Shown in pieces: positions 10,018 to 34,439 of a DNA stretch of 35,226 bases. The notes below the pieces were generated by a model. It saw nothing but the letters and a program-made list of their open reading frames with translations. It was not told where the DNA came from and did no database searches. How positions within the stretch are numbered: position 1 is the stretch's first letter; each line of letters opens with the position of its first letter. Source of the stretch: a virus; the IMG/VR virus record IMGVR_UViG_3300007734_000620, positions 1 to 35,226 of that record. The stretch is one strand, 5' to 3'. Made by a program: the position numbers and the translations under genes.

Positions 10018-10024
10018 ATAGAGG

Positions 10025-10051
10025 GGGAGGGCGAAAGCTCTCCCTTTTTTT
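10025..10051 (+). terminator. Rho-independent terminator after the coat gene
   Basis: An 8-bp stem (GGGAGGGC with GCTCTCCC, one G-U pair) closes a GAAA loop and is followed by seven T. This is a textbook intrinsic terminator 7 bp after the coat stop. It would reduce transcription of the tail genes relative to coat. Confidence 0.95.
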
Positions 10052-10068
10052 ATAATAGTGGGGCTTAA

Positions 10069-20586: not shown

Positions 20587-20985
20587 GTGGCAAACCCAAA
20601 TATAGTAAGCGTAACAAGCATTCTCGGCACTACAACTTATCTAACACCCTCGGCTATTACAGCGGTGGTGTTGTTGGCTAATACAGCAGCAAGTGGTTTA
20701 GTTTATAAAATAAATCAAATAGTAGCTGCTAATGTAAACGGTGCTGCGGCAGTTAATACTACTGTCTCTGTTTACACAAATGGTGGAGTTGTACAAGGCT
20801 CTGCACCTTCTGGCGGTACAGCTTTCCCGATATGTTCTACAGTATCAGTCCCTGCAAGTGCATCACTTATAGTAGTAGATAAAGGCACAGCAGTTTACCT
20901 AATGGAAGGTACTTCAATATCAGTAACTTCTGGCACTGCAAGCGGCATTACTTACACAATTAGTTACGAGAGCATAGCAGCGTAA
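20587..20985 (+). CDS. Small beta-rich virion protein, 132 aa
   Basis: GTG 20587 follows AGGAGAG by a good distance. The product, MANPNIVSVTSILGTTTYLTP onward, is Ser/Thr/Val-rich and beta-predicted. It ends in YTISYESIAA. I recognise the opening NPNIVxVTSILG as a common small protein beside fibre genes of aquatic phages, probably a fibre- or capsid-associated decoration. Function unproven. Its stop overlaps the sulfotransferase start. Confidence 0.72.
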   Translation: MANPNIVSVTSILGTTTYLTPSAITAVVLLANTAASGLVYKINQIVAANVNGAAAVNTTVSVYTNGGVVQGSAPSGGTAFPICSTVSVPASASLIVVDKGTAVYLMEGTSISVTSGTASGITYTISYESIAA

Positions 20986-22757
20986 TGGAAAAGCAATTTC
21001 ATTTCTTGTCTGGTTTGCCTAGATCAGGATCAACAGTTCTAGCGGCTGTTCTTAACCAGAATCCATTGACTCATGTGTCTACAACATCAGGGTTAATTGC
21101 TGCATTAGATGGACTAGCAAATACATGGACACAATCACCACTACTTAATGTAAATGATTTAAAGCGCACTAAACTTTCTAAAACTATGAAAGGAATGATT
21201 GATGCGTTTTATGAGGATACTGATAAGTCTGTAGTGATTGATAAATCTAGGGGATGGGCTACTAGCTATATTATGAGCGCAATGTCGCAAGTGTTAGGAA
21301 GCACTCCTAAAGTTATTGCTACTGTAAGATCAGTCCCAGACTGTGCAGCGTCCTTTGTTCGTATTAATAAGCCTGCTGACCTAGACGAGTTCATGGCTAA
21401 CGGTCAGTTAATGAATCATCTAAAAGCTGCTTATATAGCATTGCAGGATGGTTACAGCTTTGCTCCTGAGAGCTTCTTATTTATAGAGTATGAAGACCTT
21501 ATTAGCAATCCTAAATTAGAACTGGAGCGAGTACACGCCTTCCTAGACCTGCCTCCTTTTACCTATGACTTTAATAACATAGATGGAAGTACAGTAATTG
21601 AAAATGATGAAGAATTGCATGGCACTAAGGGTATGCACGATGTTAAACCTGTCTTAGAAGCCCAGCACAGGCAAGACTCTAAAGACCTGCTCAAGCACCA
21701 CTACACATCGTTCTGTCAGCCTGAGTTCTGGCTAGATCAACCTAGAACCATACCTGAACTACACGATCTAGACCTACAGTTAGCAGCGTCTACCATTGGT
21801 GACTTTGCAGAGGGCTGGAGACTTGCCCAGAAGCTAGAAGCAGAAGAACCTACTAACCATCGTGCAGCGTACAACAGAGGCTGGTACTTGTTGTCACAAG
21901 GGCAGATACAGAAAGGCTACCAGTTGATGGATCGTGGTCGTCAGTCAGGCGTATTCGGTAACAAGCGTCCTGATGTACCTACACAGGCGTGGGATGGTAA
22001 GAGCAAAGGTATTGTAATGCTCTACCTTGAAGGTGGCTTGGGTGACCAGATTCACCAAGTGCGTTATGCCAAGCTCATAGCTCAAAGGGGCTGCAAAGTT
22101 GTTGTGTCTTGTTCAGGTGCGTTGGCTTCTTTGTTTGTAGGCGTAGAAGGCGTATCAGCCGTCATTCAACATGAGGCTACCTTCGGTATCTACCATGATT
22201 TCTTTGTACAAGGCATGAGTGCAGTGGTCCCGTTAGGCGTAGAGCTAGAGGACTTAACTGGCAGACCGTACATAGCCAAGCCCACTACCATTAAGAACCG
22301 TAAGAAGCGCATAGGTCTTAGATGGCAAGGACAGTCTAAGTTTGAACATGAACACCATAAGAAGTTTCCGTATGACTTAATGTTTGATGCAGTTAAAGAT
22401 TGTGATGCTGAGTTCATTAGTTTGCAAAGAGACGAAGGCGTTGACTCTTGCCCTGCATGGGTTAAGCAAGTTCCACTTAATACTTGGGAAGACACCCGCA
22501 ATGCTGTTGCGTCATGTGACTTAGTAATTAGTTCTTGTACAAGCGTTTCGCATCTATCTGCTGCTATGGGCGTTGAGACGTGGGTCGTGATCCCCGTAAT
22601 GGGATATTTCTTGTATGCAATGGAGGGTGACACTTGTCCTTACTACGATTCGATGAAACTGTTTAGACAAGAAACCTTTGGTGAGTGGGAAGCTCCGTTT
22701 AATAAAATGAAAGAAACTCTTACTGTAGTGAACAAAGCAATTAGGAGAGTAAAATGA
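20985..22757 (+). CDS. Sulfotransferase fused to TPR-like and GT9/GT41-like glycosyltransferase
   Basis: The 590-aa protein has two enzyme halves. Residues 5-190 are a PAPS-dependent sulfotransferase: the 5'-phosphosulfate loop GLPRSGSTV (10-18) and the 3'-phosphate pair R115 and S123, eight apart as in the family. Residues about 270-322 look like TPR helices (GWRLAQKLEAEEPTNHRAAYNRGW). Residues about 341-590 match a GT-B glycosyltransferase of the heptosyltransferase/TPR-GT type (GGLGDQIHQVRYAKLIA, KKRIGLRWQGQ, CDLVISSCTSVSHLSAAMG). Expected role: transfer of sulfate and a sugar to a surface glycan or virion protein. It starts on its neighbour's stop, amid receptor-binding genes. Confidence 0.85.
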   Translation: MEKQFHFLSGLPRSGSTVLAAVLNQNPLTHVSTTSGLIAALDGLANTWTQSPLLNVNDLKRTKLSKTMKGMIDAFYEDTDKSVVIDKSRGWATSYIMSAMSQVLGSTPKVIATVRSVPDCAASFVRINKPADLDEFMANGQLMNHLKAAYIALQDGYSFAPESFLFIEYEDLISNPKLELERVHAFLDLPPFTYDFNNIDGSTVIENDEELHGTKGMHDVKPVLEAQHRQDSKDLLKHHYTSFCQPEFWLDQPRTIPELHDLDLQLAASTIGDFAEGWRLAQKLEAEEPTNHRAAYNRGWYLLSQGQIQKGYQLMDRGRQSGVFGNKRPDVPTQAWDGKSKGIVMLYLEGGLGDQIHQVRYAKLIAQRGCKVVVSCSGALASLFVGVEGVSAVIQHEATFGIYHDFFVQGMSAVVPLGVELEDLTGRPYIAKPTTIKNRKKRIGLRWQGQSKFEHEHHKKFPYDLMFDAVKDCDAEFISLQRDEGVDSCPAWVKQVPLNTWEDTRNAVASCDLVISSCTSVSHLSAAMGVETWVVIPVMGYFLYAMEGDTCPYYDSMKLFRQETFGEWEAPFNKMKETLTVVNKAIRRVK

Positions 22758-23956
22758 GTTCACGATTTCCGGGTGGCTTTGATAAGCCCAACATATATCC
22801 CGCTATAACAGGAACAGGCACAACACGCTGGACTGGTATGTGGACATTAACTGATGCCGCTAATGCGCTTGTTGCAGGTAATTGGCCTTCATCTCCTATT
22901 TGGGGGTCAGGCTATAACAGTAATGGAGGAGGTCTCGGTCTTAACGATACTACTGCCCGTAGTAGTCCCTCTGCGGTAGGTGGTGGAATGATTCCGTGGA
23001 CTGATATAAGTAGCGGGTATAGAAATTGTTTAGCATTAAAACAAAATGGAACGCTGTGGGCGTGGGGTACTAATCCTTATGGTGCGCTTGGAGACAGCAC
23101 AATTATTGCTAAATCTTCTCCAATTCAAGTAGGAGCACTCACCACTTGGGCAAAGATTGCCAGTGATCAATACACATCGTTTGCTATCAAGACCAATGGG
23201 TCGCTTTGGTCGTGGGGGTATAACAGTGTAGGACAACTTGGTGACTCGACTGTTTATACAACTAATCGTTCTTCACCAGTACAAGTAGGTGCGCTGACTA
23301 CTTGGTCTAATGTGTTTTGTGGTGGTAGGGCAATAATGGCTGTCAAGACTGATGGGACGCTCTGGGGGTGGGGAGGTAACGCCTATGGTCAGTTAGGCAT
23401 AGGCAACACTGCTAATTACTCCTCACCTATGCAAGTTGGCGCACTCACTACTTGGTCTAAAGTAACTATTGATAGCAATAGGACATTAGCACTAAAGACC
23501 AATGGGACGCTTTGGTCGTGGGGACTAAACAACACTGGTCAAATTGGGGATGGCACTACTTTAAGCAAATCTTCTCCTGTTCAGATAGGGGCTTTAACCA
23601 CTTGGACAGCTACAGGGAAAATGGGCGCAATAAAAGGGGGTGAGTTGTGGCATTGGGGCGATGTCACACAAGGAAGATTAGCTATTGGTGGAAGCATTGC
23701 CTTTAGCTACTCTTCACCAGTACAAGTAGGCACCCAAACTAATTGGTCAAGTTTATCTACTGGGGGTTCGTCTGATTTTTGTACAGCAATCAAGACTGAT
23801 GGGACGCTCTGGGGGTGGGGAGGTAACGGTTCTGGTCAACTAGGACTAGGCAATAACACTTATCTCAATAAGGGTGTTACTCAAATTTCTAATTTAACCA
23901 CTTGGATAAAAACTACAAATCAAGGTTCTGCCTCTGTGCATCTCAAAACAGTATAA
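22754..23956 (+). CDS. RCC1-like seven-bladed beta-propeller, likely adhesin
   Basis: The 400-aa protein contains seven repeats of about 48 residues. Each has a turn like TLWAWGTNPYGALGD and a linker SSPxQVGALTTW. The first, PIWGSGYNSNGGGLGL, is diverged, so the blades number seven as in RCC1. Each blade also has the A(I/L/V)KTNG(T/S)LW strand. Propellers of this type are used by phage tips to bind host receptors (inference). GGAGAG precedes its ATG, which overlaps the stop of the fusion enzyme. Two exact 39-bp repeats lie within it. Confidence 0.88.
   Translation: MSSRFPGGFDKPNIYPAITGTGTTRWTGMWTLTDAANALVAGNWPSSPIWGSGYNSNGGGLGLNDTTARSSPSAVGGGMIPWTDISSGYRNCLALKQNGTLWAWGTNPYGALGDSTIIAKSSPIQVGALTTWAKIASDQYTSFAIKTNGSLWSWGYNSVGQLGDSTVYTTNRSSPVQVGALTTWSNVFCGGRAIMAVKTDGTLWGWGGNAYGQLGIGNTANYSSPMQVGALTTWSKVTIDSNRTLALKTNGTLWSWGLNNTGQIGDGTTLSKSSPVQIGALTTWTATGKMGAIKGGELWHWGDVTQGRLAIGGSIAFSYSSPVQVGTQTNWSSLSTGGSSDFCTAIKTDGTLWGWGGNGSGQLGLGNNTYLNKGVTQISNLTTWIKTTNQGSASVHLKTV
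23343..23381 (+). repeat. 39-bp direct repeat in the propeller gene, copy 1
   Basis: Exact copy of 23790-23828. The 447-bp spacing is a multiple of three and equals about three propeller blades. Confidence 0.92.
23790..23828 (+). repeat. 39-bp direct repeat in the propeller gene, copy 2
   Basis: Second exact copy of 23343-23381, encoding KTDGTLWGWGGN in both places. Confidence 0.92.
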
Positions 23957-26688: not shown

Positions 26689-27894
26689 ATGCCTTACAGA
26701 GTTAATTTCGATTGGAGATCAGTTCCTGCTGAAGCTGAAGCTGTCTTAGAAAGCGACAAGCAAAGAGTTGCGTTTAATCTATTAAGAGCAGGCGGCAGAC
26801 CGAAGGACATTACTGAAGCTCTTGGTGTAGATCAAAGAAACTACTTCAAGATGGCTGCAAGAATTCGTGACCTAATTAATAAGTCTGGTTACGATCCCGT
26901 TCATCACATGACACTGATGTCTCCTTCTCCCCAAGTAATATCTGGTCGTAGCTCATTAGTTAAGGTTGATGAGGATGGGAAAGAAACAGTAGCAATGTAT
27001 TGGAATAAGACGAATGTAAAGCAAGAGTCACAAGTTGCTGCATTCCGATCTGCTATAGAATCTCTTGCTGAAGGTATAACTCCTTTCGTACAAGTACCAG
27101 CCAAGCAAGGTGCTAACTTCGACTTACTCACTGTTTATACTCTGACTGATTTCCACTTGGGTATGTATGCGTGGCAAGAAGAAACTGGTGCAAGTTGGGA
27201 CATGAAAATTGCAGAAGGTGTTTTGCTAAATGCGTTCTCAGATATGATGAGTGGTAGTCCTGACTCAAGAGTAGGGATATTTGCCCAGTTGGGAGACTTG
27301 TTACACTGGGATGGGATGTTAGCAATGACACCAACAGCTAAGAATGTCCTTGATGCTGATACGAGATTCCCTTTATTAGTACAGACAGCCATTAGTGTTT
27401 GTCTGAAAGTTATTGAGATGCTTCTTCACAAGCACGACAAGGTTCATGTGTTAATGGCAGAGGGTAATCACGATATGGCATCGAGTGTGTGGATGCGAGC
27501 AATAATGAAAAATACCTTTCGAGATAATCCGAGAGTTACAGTAGACGCTTCACCATTTCCTTTTTACCACTACAGATGGGGTAAGACTTTCTTAGGGTGG
27601 CATCATGGACACTTACAGAAGATGGACAGTCTTCCTCTGTTGTTTGCTACCGATCCACAATTTAAAGCAGACTACGGTCAATGTAATTTTACTTACATCC
27701 ACACTGGTCATATGCACCATACAAAAGTAATCGACAAGGGAGGGATAATTGTTGAGCAGCATCCTACTCTATCTGCAAGAGATGCGTATGGAGCTAGAGG
27801 GTTCTTGTATTCAAATCGAGAAGCCAAAGCAATTACATATTCTAATGAACACGGTGAAGTTTCACGCAGCACTGTGAGACCTAATTTCACATGA
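26689..27894 (+). CDS. Calcineurin-like metallophosphoesterase with N-terminal HTH
   Basis: ATG 26689 has GGAG five bases upstream; a GTG at 26683 is weaker. The 401-aa protein has an HTH-like segment (about 27-62, FNLLRAGGRPKDITEALGV). The phosphoesterase domain shows all motifs: DFH (154-156), GD (202-203), GNHD (259-262), WHHGH (304-308) and TGHMHH (339-344). The two-metal site is complete. Phage relatives are annotated as phosphoesterases of unknown substrate. A DNA-end or nucleotide substrate is plausible. Confidence 0.88.
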   Translation: MPYRVNFDWRSVPAEAEAVLESDKQRVAFNLLRAGGRPKDITEALGVDQRNYFKMAARIRDLINKSGYDPVHHMTLMSPSPQVISGRSSLVKVDEDGKETVAMYWNKTNVKQESQVAAFRSAIESLAEGITPFVQVPAKQGANFDLLTVYTLTDFHLGMYAWQEETGASWDMKIAEGVLLNAFSDMMSGSPDSRVGIFAQLGDLLHWDGMLAMTPTAKNVLDADTRFPLLVQTAISVCLKVIEMLLHKHDKVHVLMAEGNHDMASSVWMRAIMKNTFRDNPRVTVDASPFPFYHYRWGKTFLGWHHGHLQKMDSLPLLFATDPQFKADYGQCNFTYIHTGHMHHTKVIDKGGIIVEQHPTLSARDAYGARGFLYSNREAKAITYSNEHGEVSRSTVRPNFT

Positions 27895-28328
27895 CGACTA
27901 TAGTGTACGATTTAAAATCTAAACGGGTTGCCTGCGATGGTCGAGTTACTCAGGGCGATGAGATCATTACTGACGAAGCAGAAAAAAGACTTGAGTTGGA
28001 TAATATTGAATTTTTCTTTGCTGGTGATGTTGGATCGTTTAAAGAAGTCGCAGAGGCTTTTGTAAAGCAAACACATAAGATTAGAAAAGGTGTCGATGCT
28101 CAAGCACTAGCTTGGGATGGACTAGACCTGTTCGATTTATCAGCCGAGAAGGGTGTCTTAAGCTGGCATCCAGTAGTGGCTCGTAGGGGTGCTATAGGAG
28201 GGGGCGCATCCTATGCATCGGTCTCATTAGATAGTGGCTGTACGCCCAAACAGGCGGTCTTAGCAGCGATTAAAAAGCACACAGGCACTGGCGGTAAGGT
28301 TCGCTGTTATAGATTGAGATTAAGATGA
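27891..28328 (+). CDS. HslV/proteasome-like Ntn hydrolase
   Basis: The protein starts MTTIVYD. Removal of Met exposes Thr as nucleophile. With that Thr as 1, Asp15 (ACDGR) and Lys31 (EAEKRL) match the Asp17 and Lys33 of proteasome subunits. FFFAGDVGS and GGGASYASVSLDSG follow the family pattern. At 145 aa it is a little shorter than HslV (about 175). It could act as a small protease or peptidase, possibly with host HslU; that is unproven. ATGA overlap with the phosphoesterase. Confidence 0.8.
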   Translation: MTTIVYDLKSKRVACDGRVTQGDEIITDEAEKRLELDNIEFFFAGDVGSFKEVAEAFVKQTHKIRKGVDAQALAWDGLDLFDLSAEKGVLSWHPVVARRGAIGGGASYASVSLDSGCTPKQAVLAAIKKHTGTGGKVRCYRLRLR

Positions 28329-32051: not shown

Positions 32052-32236
32052 TATTTGAGTGTAGGGAATGTGGTACAACTGACCTAGAGTCTAGAAGACT
32101 TGTCACTTCGTTTTGTAGAGATTGCTTTTCTAAGACCGAGAAAAAATATAGACAAGACTTAAACGCAAGTCGATTAGTAAATAGACATGAACCAAATTGG
32201 GACATGAAGCTCGCTAATAAGTGGTTAAAAATATGA
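32042..32236 (+). CDS. Zinc-ribbon protein, 64 aa
   Basis: The protein has CRECG (Cys7, Cys10) and CRDC (Cys25, Cys28), a treble-clef/ribbon type metal site, followed by a charged helix ending KLANKWLKI. Function unknown; second small ribbon protein in a row. It overlaps the next ATG by 4 bp. Confidence 0.7.
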   Translation: MAIIFECRECGTTDLESRRLVTSFCRDCFSKTEKKYRQDLNASRLVNRHEPNWDMKLANKWLKI

Positions 32237-32391
32237 GACCAACAAAAAAAGACGAACAGTCTACCGCAAAAGAAGTGCAGATTTATCTAAAAAAGGGTGG
32301 TGTTATAAAGCAATTGAAACACGGTGAAACAGCGGACACTGTACTTTTAAGACAGAAGTTTACGATTAATATTAAAAAGAATGGTCGATAA
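32233..32391 (+). CDS. Small conserved phage protein, 52 aa
   Basis: ATG 32233 overlaps the previous stop (ATGA). The basic product includes AKEVQIYLKKGGVIKQLKHGET, a pattern seen in small phage proteins (YLxxGGxIxxLxxG). No function known. It is the last gene before the noncoding region. Confidence 0.65.
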   Translation: MRPTKKDEQSTAKEVQIYLKKGGVIKQLKHGETADTVLLRQKFTINIKKNGR

Positions 32392-32422
32392 AAAAGCCCC
32401 GCAGCTTTTGGCATTGGGGCTT
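32390..32422 (-). terminator. Minus-strand intrinsic terminator
   Basis: AAGCCCC (32394-32400) and GGGGCTT (32416-32422) form a 7-bp stem. Read on the minus strand it is followed by TTTTTT (complement of 32390-32395). On the plus strand there is no T tract. It would stop transcripts coming leftward from the noncoding region. Confidence 0.65.
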
Positions 32423-32449
32423 GACCTCAACCACACGGGAGCGTAGTAT
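32421..32449 (+). promoter_or_regulatory. Sigma70-type promoter of the candidate ncRNA
   Basis: TTGACC (32421-32426), 17 bp, TAGTAT (32444-32449): five and four matches to consensus with ideal spacing. The start is expected near 32456, three bases before the foot of the first long stem. It is among the best promoters in the window and lies where no gene follows. Confidence 0.7.
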
Positions 32450-32455
32450 CGGTTT

Positions 32456-32919
32456 GTCGGTTGGATTTGCGTCCAGTCGATACTGAATGGGGGTAAAGCA
32501 TCGACTTGCCGACAGCGGCATTATCGTAACTCCCTCCGAATAAAGCAACATATTTATCAGTATCGAATCCAACCTTCCGGTAGGTCAAGCATTGGTCTCT
32601 TCGGAACACCTAGCTTGTAAAAATTTAGGGATACTATCAAACCCTACCGATAGCGTGATGAGTGGCTAGACCGTGAACTTACATTGGAGAAATCCTTGAG
32701 TGAACCACAAATGGTCTGGCGCAATTGAGCGTGATAGTGCGGTGTGTATAGCCGTAATCAATTGATCTGAGTGCTTATACCAGTGACTCAGACCAGACAC
32801 GAGGGCGAAAGTTCGGGTGGATGGTAACGCACTTAGTGGTGATGTTAATTCATCATCACTAGGGTGAATATTGTCCAGAACTCAGGCTCAGAAACGAATG
32901 GATGATAAATGTTTTTATC
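32456..32919 (+). ncRNA. Candidate large structured phage RNA (about 460 nt)
   Basis: No credible ORF covers this GC-richer stretch. Stems: 32459-32466 with 32567-32574 (8 bp) stacked on 32477-32486 with 32557-32566 (10 bp). Inside lie 32489-32494/32529-32534 and 32507-32511/32516-32520. Then 32586-32590/32613-32617 with a C(UUCG)G loop, 32626-32630/32642-32646 (its loop can pair 32634-32638 with 32649-32653), 32665-32672/32713-32720 with an inner GGA-GAAA-TCC, 32722-32728/32758-32764, 32766-32772/32786-32792 and 32832-32844/32851-32863. Several contain G-U pairs that would be A-C on the other strand, so the RNA is plus-sense. The 3' end is uncertain. Size and setting recall GOLLD/ROOL-type phage RNAs, but I do not recognise the sequence. 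Confidence 0.7.
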
Positions 32920-32963
32920 TATACGATTATAAATAATAAATAGAATGATTTAACGGGAGATGT

Positions 32964-34439
32964 ATGGAATTAAGACCACACCAGCAATTAGCAATTGATT
33001 TAATTAGAAAGTCTTTAGCTACTGGACACAAGCGACCACTGTTAGCAGCTCCTTGTTCTTTTGGAAAGACTTTAGTATCTGCTTACATCCTTCAACACGC
33101 TGTAGAAAAAGGTAATCGTGTTATCTTTTTTGCTGATCGATTGAAATTAATTTCTCAGACTCAGGCTCAGTTTGATTCGATGGGAATTAAATACGGAGTT
33201 ATTCAAGGTCAGCATGAAATGACCGACTCAAGACATCCGATTCAAATCGCAAGTGTTCAGACTATTTCCCGAAGAAAGTTTATGCCTGAGTTTGATCTAG
33301 CTATAGTTGATGAGACTCATGTCCTACCGCAAGTTATTATTAAACTGATGGAGAGATATGACAATGTTCCGTTTATAGGTTTAAGTGCTACACCTTATTC
33401 AAAAGGACTTGGAAAATATTACGATGATTTAATTGTTCCTATAACACCAGCAGAATTACTTGAGCAAGGATACCTAGCACCAGTTCATTATTACGGTGGC
33501 TCTCATGTAGACATGAGTAAAATTAAAATGAAAGCTATATCAACTGGTGGATCTGACTACGATCCCGACCAACTCGCAGAAGCTACTGAGGCTCAACAAG
33601 AAAAACTCACTGGAGATATAGTTAGTAATTGGAAACTCTACGGAGAGAATTCCCAGACCATCGCCTTTAGTCCATCGATAAAACATTCAAAGTATTTAGT
33701 AGAGATGTTTAACAGAGAGGGAATACCTGCTGCGCACATCGATGGCTACACAGAAGAATCCGCACGACAGGTTTTATACAAAGCCCACAATAATAATGAA
33801 TTTAAAATACTATCCTGTTCTCGTCTTTTAAATACCGGCTACGATGCACCGCAAGTTAAGTGTTTGATAGATTGTTTTCCGACTAAATCAATTATTGCTT
33901 ATCAACAAAGAGCCGGAAGGATTATGAGAATCCATCCTGATAAAACTCATGCGATATATTTAGATCACGCCAGTAATGTCCAAAGATTTGGTTTTGCAGA
34001 AAACATAGTCCCTACTATTCTAGATGATGGTGAAAAGAAATTTGCTGAGAAAGATCAGATTAAAGAAGTAAAAGAAACTAAACAAAAAGATTGTCCGATG
34101 TGTCAAAAAATTATGATCGGTCTTAGATGTTCTTGTGGGTATGAAATTCCCATCAGAGAGAGAATAGAAACTGACGGATCAACTTTAGTTAAGATAGCTA
34201 ATTTAAAGGCATACACACACGCCAGCAAGTCGATGTGGTATTCAGGGCTATTGACTTACGCAAGAAACAAAGGATTTTCGGATGGGTGGGCTGCTTGGAA
34301 ATACAAAGGCAAGTTCGGTGTATTCCCTCGCAGTTTAGAAATTCGGATAGGTCAAATCCCTGTAGAGGTCCAAAACTGGATCACTTCTGAGAACATCAAA
34401 TATAGTAAAAGTCAAGAGAAATTTCGAAAACAGGCATAA
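32964..34439 (+). CDS. SF2 DNA helicase (UvsW/SSL2-like) with zinc-binding insert
   Basis: The 491-aa protein has RPHQQLAI (Q-like), motif I APCSFGKT (29-36), motif II DETH (116-119), motif III SATP (141-144), motif V-like LNTGYDAP (290-297) and motif VI QQRAGR (315-320). Four cysteines (378, 381, 390, 392) form a zinc site. The C-terminus (about 420-470, WYSGLLTYARNKGFSDGWAAWKYKGKFG) is a domain seen in phage helicases. It likely remodels forks or branched DNA in recombination-dependent replication. GGGAG precedes the ATG. Confidence 0.9.
   Translation: MELRPHQQLAIDLIRKSLATGHKRPLLAAPCSFGKTLVSAYILQHAVEKGNRVIFFADRLKLISQTQAQFDSMGIKYGVIQGQHEMTDSRHPIQIASVQTISRRKFMPEFDLAIVDETHVLPQVIIKLMERYDNVPFIGLSATPYSKGLGKYYDDLIVPITPAELLEQGYLAPVHYYGGSHVDMSKIKMKAISTGGSDYDPDQLAEATEAQQEKLTGDIVSNWKLYGENSQTIAFSPSIKHSKYLVEMFNREGIPAAHIDGYTEESARQVLYKAHNNNEFKILSCSRLLNTGYDAPQVKCLIDCFPTKSIIAYQQRAGRIMRIHPDKTHAIYLDHASNVQRFGFAENIVPTILDDGEKKFAEKDQIKEVKETKQKDCPMCQKIMIGLRCSCGYEIPIRERIETDGSTLVKIANLKAYTHASKSMWYSGLLTYARNKGFSDGWAAWKYKGKFGVFPRSLEIRIGQIPVEVQNWITSENIKYSKSQEKFRKQA

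Follow-up and report, generated by a model that had tools for sequence, protein, structure and literature searches.

Few large structured RNAs have been described from phages, and for most of them no function has been established. Two of them, GOLLD and ROOL, form homo-oligomeric nanocages, with GOLLD (often over 800 nt) carrying a conserved 3′ region and lying near tRNA genes (PMC12286853). ROOL sits near tRNA islands and is very abundant. The put RNA of phage HK022 is far smaller: about 70 nt in length and built from two stem-loops, it is found in early operons just downstream of the promoter and, as RNA alone, affects terminators at distances of 10 kb or more (PMC9378689). Put suppresses terminators in cis, via the zinc-binding domain of the β′ subunit of RNA polymerase (RNAP). 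A protein that also touches on what follows is SutA, a host factor of Pseudomonas aeruginosa, which binds the β protrusion of RNAP and opens the cleft at promoters (PMC9300723).

We have analysed a phage record of 35,226 bases (hereafter ‘the window’), in which the preliminary description, made from the sequence alone, had proposed that 32421-32919 encodes a new RNA, large, structured and plus-sense, which is transcribed from a promoter of its own. That proposal is upheld by the fold, by covariation, by the position of the promoter and by the absence of an Rfam match, albeit without transcript data. We consider it very likely that window 32454 to about 32905 (plus strand) encodes a structured RNA that belongs to a genuine family; the assignment rests on the folding z-score and on homologues, with a start at about 32455 and a 3′ boundary that is approximate. 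It is likely, though again without transcript data, that the RNA is a leader heading a late transcript rather than a gene-specific switch, unless it is cut.

How does this locus compare? Like GOLLD it is a large, ornate phage RNA with one part more conserved than the rest, but here it is the 5′ module that is shared more widely; like ROOL it is a large phage RNA that has pseudoknots and is of comparable length, but it is joined to the late operon as a leader. GOLLD and ROOL are transcribed apart from the operon that follows, whereas this RNA runs into the next gene, and the tRNA genes or islands that characteristically lie near them are absent here, neither the window nor any of 10 relatives containing a tRNA or tmRNA. 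The suggestion of a GOLLD/ROOL-like setting does not hold: this is a modular leader, without tRNAs, at an early/late junction. There is a likeness to put, in that both are structured phage RNAs that lie just after a promoter, head a long operon and act, or would act, in cis without gene specificity. The differences are nonetheless considerable, as the leader is 300-560 nt, has a 5′ domain of a helix (P1) and a pseudoknot, carries exchangeable 3′ domains, precedes late genes and comes with no activity data; we should add that size and fold were compared by eye only, without a direct comparison to the put sequence. There is also a resemblance to the late-control region of phage lambda (pR′, the 6S leader and tR′) in the position between nin and late genes and in the pairing of promoter with leader, extending in some relatives (type E, below) to a tR′-like terminator before the genes. 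However, no Q-like protein is recognised here, and the leader is much larger, with a conserved structure.

Homologues and modularity

Scanning IMG/VR with the downstream helicase recovered three contigs of one phage, whose helicase is 77% identical to that of the window and whose upstream DNA is 88% identical to window 32390-32524 before diverging. A motif scan then gave a third phage, L011, with 83% identity across the same part; its 3′ half is a different one, and shares 71% identity over 300 nt with L023 and L033. An alignment-based helicase scan returned 80 loci, the diagnostic RNA motif being present in 62 (loci without it were mostly cut short or of divergent types), and two further motif scans returned 66 and 19 contigs. 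With chance hits and repeats removed, the family comes to about 120 viral contigs in IMG/VR, with one extra contig that is binned as an Anaerolineales genome and is itself phage-looking. Chance motif hits in coding DNA account for L007, L010, L012, L014-L017, L154, L159, L094 and L136, and for an apparent ‘RNA beside portal gene’, all of which were dropped; a motif scan for CGAAAGTTCGGGTGGATGGTAACGCAC found nothing.

Members of the family are about 300-560 nt long, with a 5′ module that is more widely common than the 3′ halves, of which there are several types. The window RNA combines a type A 5′ module with a type D 3′ half, L008 and L022 combine 5′ A with a C-like 3′ end (as judged by eye), L011 combines 5′ A with 3′ E, and L090 combines 5′ C with 3′ D; such mixed combinations indicate that these phages have recombined inside the RNA.

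Against Rfam 15 the window gave no match at gathering thresholds, and a relaxed search of 32200-33100 (up to E=10) returned only unrelated eukaryotic families at E≥1. Thirteen relatives likewise gave nothing at gathering, and in four relatives searched up to E=5 the sole hit was a snoRNA (E=1.7) that falls beyond the limits of the RNA. No Rfam match links the window RNA to GOLLD, ROOL, OLE, HEARO, group I or II introns, RNase P or 6S RNA. When the RNAs of the window and of types B, C and F were searched as DNA against 50,697 named phage records, nothing matched, and a search of the open-access literature found no description of this RNA. We regard the family as new, in the sense of being absent from Rfam, from the named phage records and from the literature searched. 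Cultured relatives by helicase or portal (Vibrio 1.148.O, Pelagibacter Baldr, Pseudoalteromonas H6/1 and Vibrio 234P9) gave no match to model R1; as this model misses types B, D and E, absence of the RNA from these phages is not proven. One protein of H6/1, gp46, is annotated as an antiterminator but has no supporting domain match, and was set aside.

Promoter, fold and 5′ domain

The conserved unit begins at 32390, upstream of the limit set in the preliminary description, with an A-run and a GCCCC/GGGGC inverted repeat (32390-32420) that is terminator-like on the minus strand. This stem is kept in L008, L011 and L022, and the arrangement is the same in the B and C relatives; in group B the stem also has a U-run, and reads as a bidirectional terminator. 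A terminator-like stem of this kind often shields the RNA promoter from transcription that arrives from upstream. The promoter itself, a sigma70-type TTGACC-N17-TAGTAT on the plus strand at 32421-32449, held up, although by its conserved position and not by its consensus score, on which it is unremarkable (24 promoter-like sites, against 22.7 in shuffles). Of 27 homologous RNAs, 26 have a −35/−10 pair of sigma70 type at the right distance for transcription to begin at the first helix, P1, a placement that only 11% of random positions fit at the same threshold; the predicted start in the window is about 32455.

No credible ORF is found in 32392-32963, as had been claimed; the two minus-strand ORFs in this gap (60-66 aa) overlap a stretch with single-base indels in the homologues. 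The claimed rise in GC content also holds, although it is only modest (0.42-0.44, against 0.35-0.39). The plus strand of 32456-32919 folds at −150.8 kcal/mol (z=−4.33, with 0 of 100 shuffles as low) and the minus strand of the same stretch at z=−1.59; for the plus strand of 32454-32905, z=−4.8.

Four alignments show strong covariation. In group B (13 sequences) 96.7% of cells are paired across 106 pairs, with 61 double-change cells against 19.5 in shuffles; in group C (13 sequences) 99.0% are paired, with 29 double-change cells against 7.8. The window 3′ domain, aligned with L078, L091, L093 and L090 (four distinct), has 89.9% of cells paired and double changes in 23 of 52 pairs (10.1±2.3 when shuffled), and in none of these three sets did any of 500 shuffles reach the observed values. 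Shifting the structures by 1-3 columns reduces pairing to 28-45%, a control that is biased in their favour since the consensus structures were derived from the same alignments. Of the checks and refutations that the preliminary description had named, the Rfam comparison was thus run without a match, covariation in homologues was run and is strong, and no coding explanation was found.

In the aligned helices G-U outnumbers A-C by 58:7, 147:10 and 82:0. This excess fits a plus-sense RNA, as had been inferred from the G-U mismatches in the window, although G-U is a pair that the folding program favours or permits of its own accord. It bears also on another conceivable role, either in packaging, like the RNA of phi29, or at the level of the DNA, for example as an origin or a pac site, which could be entertained as in many contigs the RNA lies a few kilobases 5′ of TerS/TerL. 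We think this very unlikely: pairing is plus-sense, with G-U present and few A-C, the element starts at a promoter, and the terminase encoded here belongs to a family unlike that of phi29.

The best-supported helix of the leader, missed by the preliminary description, is P1, in which UUGUCGG (32454-32460) pairs with CCGACAG (32509-32515) on the plus strand. Across 24 sequences 98.8% of its cells are paired and five of its seven pairs covary, with 24 double-change cells against 7.2±3.0 when shuffled. The form UGUCGG/CCGACA is found in the window, L008, L011 and L022, GUGUUGG/CCAACAC in type C, GUGCCGG/CCGGCAC in type F, AUACCGG/CCGGUAU in L078 and GCGUCGG/CCGACGC in L080. Two new variants, GUGUCGG/CCGACAC and GUUCCGG/CCGGAAC, turned up at the predicted place, with a promoter, in contigs that had been fetched by their 3′ tail only, and provide an out-of-sample test that is independent of the alignment-derived consensus structures.

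Within P1, a hairpin termed P2 (UGGA at 32462-32465 with UCCA at 32472-32475, plus strand) is kept in L008 and L011, and competes with a window-only helix, 32459-32467/32566-32574. An ‘18-bp two-part stem’ had been proposed here, and this holds in part: its inner portion, UCGAUACUGA:UCAGUAUCGA, is kept in L008 and L011 with analogues elsewhere, whereas the outer portion, GGUUGGAUU:AAUCCAACC, is found in the window only and fails as a conserved element. As UCGAUACUGA (32477-32486) lies inside P1 and UCAGUAUCGA (32557-32566) outside it, the presence of P1 makes this plus-strand helix a pseudoknot. Single-sequence searches for it are not significant case by case; significance comes alone from a comparison of strands matched within a phage with strands exchanged between phages (−18.6 against −15.4±0.85 kcal/mol; permutation p=0.0006, 12 representatives). 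P1 with the overlapping pseudoknot is common to nearly all types. The most conserved stretch of the 5′ domain lies at 32505-32529 (plus strand), around CTTGCCGACAGCGGCATTATCGTAA, where ATTATCGYAA is also found in group B.

3′ domains and passage into the following gene

The type D 3′ domain of the window spans 32636-32898 on the plus strand, and covariation with the four relatives named above supports helices at 32659-32664/32830-32835, 32665-32670/32715-32720, 32722-32728/32758-32764 and 32739-32743/32751-32755, amongst others. Near its end, at 32859-32876 (plus strand), is the tail CUAGGGUGAAUAUUGUCC, which we equate, by eye, with UAAAUGACnACUAUUGCC of types C and F. A hidden mini-ORF in the tail (AUGACNACUAUUGCCUAA, which reads MTTIA*) was considered and rejected, its AUG not being conserved.

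At most loci the conserved tail lies no more than about 25 nt from the start codon, and at 39 of 40 tail sites (150 nt scanned, a few of the sites being chance motif hits) there is no terminator between the RNA and the next gene, which makes it the leader of a late transcript, unless cut. The main rival reading, which remains possible, is that it is indeed cut near the 3′ tail, giving a large stand-alone noncoding RNA that works in trans, as a scaffold or an assembly made of RNA only, much as with GOLLD, ROOL or OLE. Its size and ornate, pseudoknotted fold resemble GOLLD and ROOL, the 3′ tail is sharply conserved, and the downstream genes vary; against this, no terminator follows the RNA, no tRNA genes lie nearby in the contigs tested (unlike GOLLD and ROOL), the RNA always heads an operon, and it has no sequence relation to GOLLD or ROOL.

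Returning to the leader, the E-type relatives are distinctive in that its first part is closed by a very strong intrinsic terminator (>20 bp, U7; −42 to −48 kcal/mol), after which come the 3′ domain and then the gene. These terminators fall in the interval from promoter to 3′ domain, at about 5785-5870 in L023, about 7585-7690 in L033 and about 1220-1330 in L024, so that in these relatives the site, inside the leader and ahead of the gene, controls read-through. In different phages (L011, 717-1319; L023, after 6170) the gene after the type E 3′ domain encodes a related HNH endonuclease, and RNA and gene may possibly move jointly as a cassette.

In the window, terminase, portal, capsid and tail genes occupy the left side and lysis, recombination, nin-type and helicase genes the right, with the gene after the RNA (32964-34439, plus strand) encoding a superfamily II DNA helicase (phrog_16, E=1.6e-81). 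As the terminase genes are here at the other end of the record, the link between RNA and late genes rests on other contigs, many of which have the order exonuclease/Sak, NinB/NinG, RNA, helicase, TerS, TerL and portal, all on one strand. The RNA is usually 5′ of this same helicase gene, between the early (recombination/nin) and late (terminase, portal) genes, a junction at which many uncultivated aquatic phages pass from the one set to the other, but what follows it varies by phage and includes the helicase, a C5-methyltransferase, Mom, HNH, PD-(D/E)XK, phrog_18407 and unknown families. It follows that the RNA serves the operon and not a single gene; the constant tie to one gene or pathway that would mark a riboswitch or gene-specific leader is lacking, as the downstream genes differ.

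This variation also weighs upon a cis-acting 5′ UTR that tunes translation of the first gene by exposing or hiding its start site, possibly under the influence of some factor from phage or host. The closeness of the 3′ tail to the start codon is in its favour, and E-type leaders look like attenuators, but the target would have to vary among helicase, methyltransferase, Mom, HNH and PD-(D/E)XK genes, and translational leaders are usually bound to one gene or pathway; we consider it unlikely.

Three further candidates were rejected: a type III toxin-antitoxin RNA (ToxI), there being no tandem repeats and the next gene being a helicase and not ToxN-like; a self-splicing intron, as the element lies between complete genes, has its own promoter and has no Rfam intron match; and a nuclease guide RNA, which the HNH or PD-(D/E)XK genes that sometimes follow might suggest, as the downstream gene varies.

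Elsewhere in the window, an HslV-like peptidase gene (27891-28328; phrog_1040, E=2.3e-24) is nearly identical in L011, and two ORFs by the tail genes, noted by eye only, have a sulfotransferase-like start (20985-22757) and RCC1-like repeats (22754-23956).

A proposed model for action on host RNA polymerase

We propose a model, inferred from these comparisons, for how the leader might function. What they show is an RNA that starts at a dedicated sigma70 promoter, has its 5′ end locked by P1 and the overlapping pseudoknot, continues into a 3′ domain drawn from a set of interchangeable types, and closes with the short conserved tail that abuts the next start codon; the same-strand genes after the leader lead into terminase, portal and capsid. 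We suggest that the nascent RNA folds on, and stays with, the host RNAP that made it, and that a polymerase with RNA so bound may traverse the late operon resistant to pausing and termination, an effect that the put RNA of HK022 has for early genes. The SutA-like mini-protein, where encoded, may help the same polymerase to open the late promoter. Action via RNAP would be the simplest reading of a structured RNA at the start of a transcript, followed by any gene, adjacent to a gene for an RNAP-binding protein and without N or Q (no annotated N/Q antiterminator was found among 20 window proteins scanned). It is nonetheless inferred, with no transcript or activity data, and although we rank a put-like effect on antitermination or processivity first among the explanations, we judge it somewhat less likely than not.

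Several observations tell against it. Strong intrinsic terminators are rare downstream: 9 of 12 relative contigs scanned have none, and the only one in the scanned late region of the window (10020-10052) lies directly after the major capsid gene, so that a need to antiterminate them is not shown, Rho terminators being outside the scan. At 300-560 nt the leader far exceeds what a job done by some 70 nt of put requires. The SutA-like gene and the RNA are not always together (types C and F; L005/L006), and the conserved 3′ tail near start codons could possibly signal translation or processing instead.

A bolder reading, which is no more than possible, is that a widespread, uncultivated lineage of aquatic phages controls late transcription by a large nascent RNA, pseudoknotted and RNAP-modifying, that replaces a Q-type protein and evolves by whole-domain swaps, with the SutA-like mini-protein aiding in many of these phages. 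If the leader does act on RNAP, it would constitute a late switch made of RNA, far exceeding put in size, and would supply RNA modules that are naturally interchangeable; if put-like action were shown, it would be a new and much larger variant of RNA-mediated antitermination. With about 120 members, a fixed early/late place, a defined promoter and start, and a supported pseudoknot, the leader lends itself to a simple reporter assay of what it does.

The putative protein partner is a 52-aa ORF (32233-32391, plus strand), the last gene before the RNA, whose stop codon touches the A-run of the stem. It matches the SutA-like RNAP-binding domain PF20661 at E=2.8e-4, which falls below the curated cut-off, but all 12 of its aligned homologues match the same domain (best 2.8e-10) and its profile matches the SutA chain 7f0r_G at E=7.4e-6; the likeness to SutA is in this neighbouring protein’s domain, not in the RNA. 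Such an ORF lies directly 5′ of the RNA in types A and B, some of type D and the L053/L059 group, whilst types C and F have no SutA-like gene beside the RNA, and L005/L006 have the gene with no RNA found.

An adjacent RNAP-binding gene could also point to an RNA decoy or inhibitor of a host factor at late onset, be it RNAP (as with 6S RNA) or a defence system, and the large size, rapid diversification and domain swapping are as in an arms race. This too we consider unlikely: 6S RNA is in Rfam and gave no match, there is no direct evidence for a target, and the strict position at the head of an operon is left unexplained.

Finally, in type C an ORF that looks, by eye only, like a sigma region-4 HTH precedes the RNA in place of the SutA-like gene (L065, upstream of 6600).
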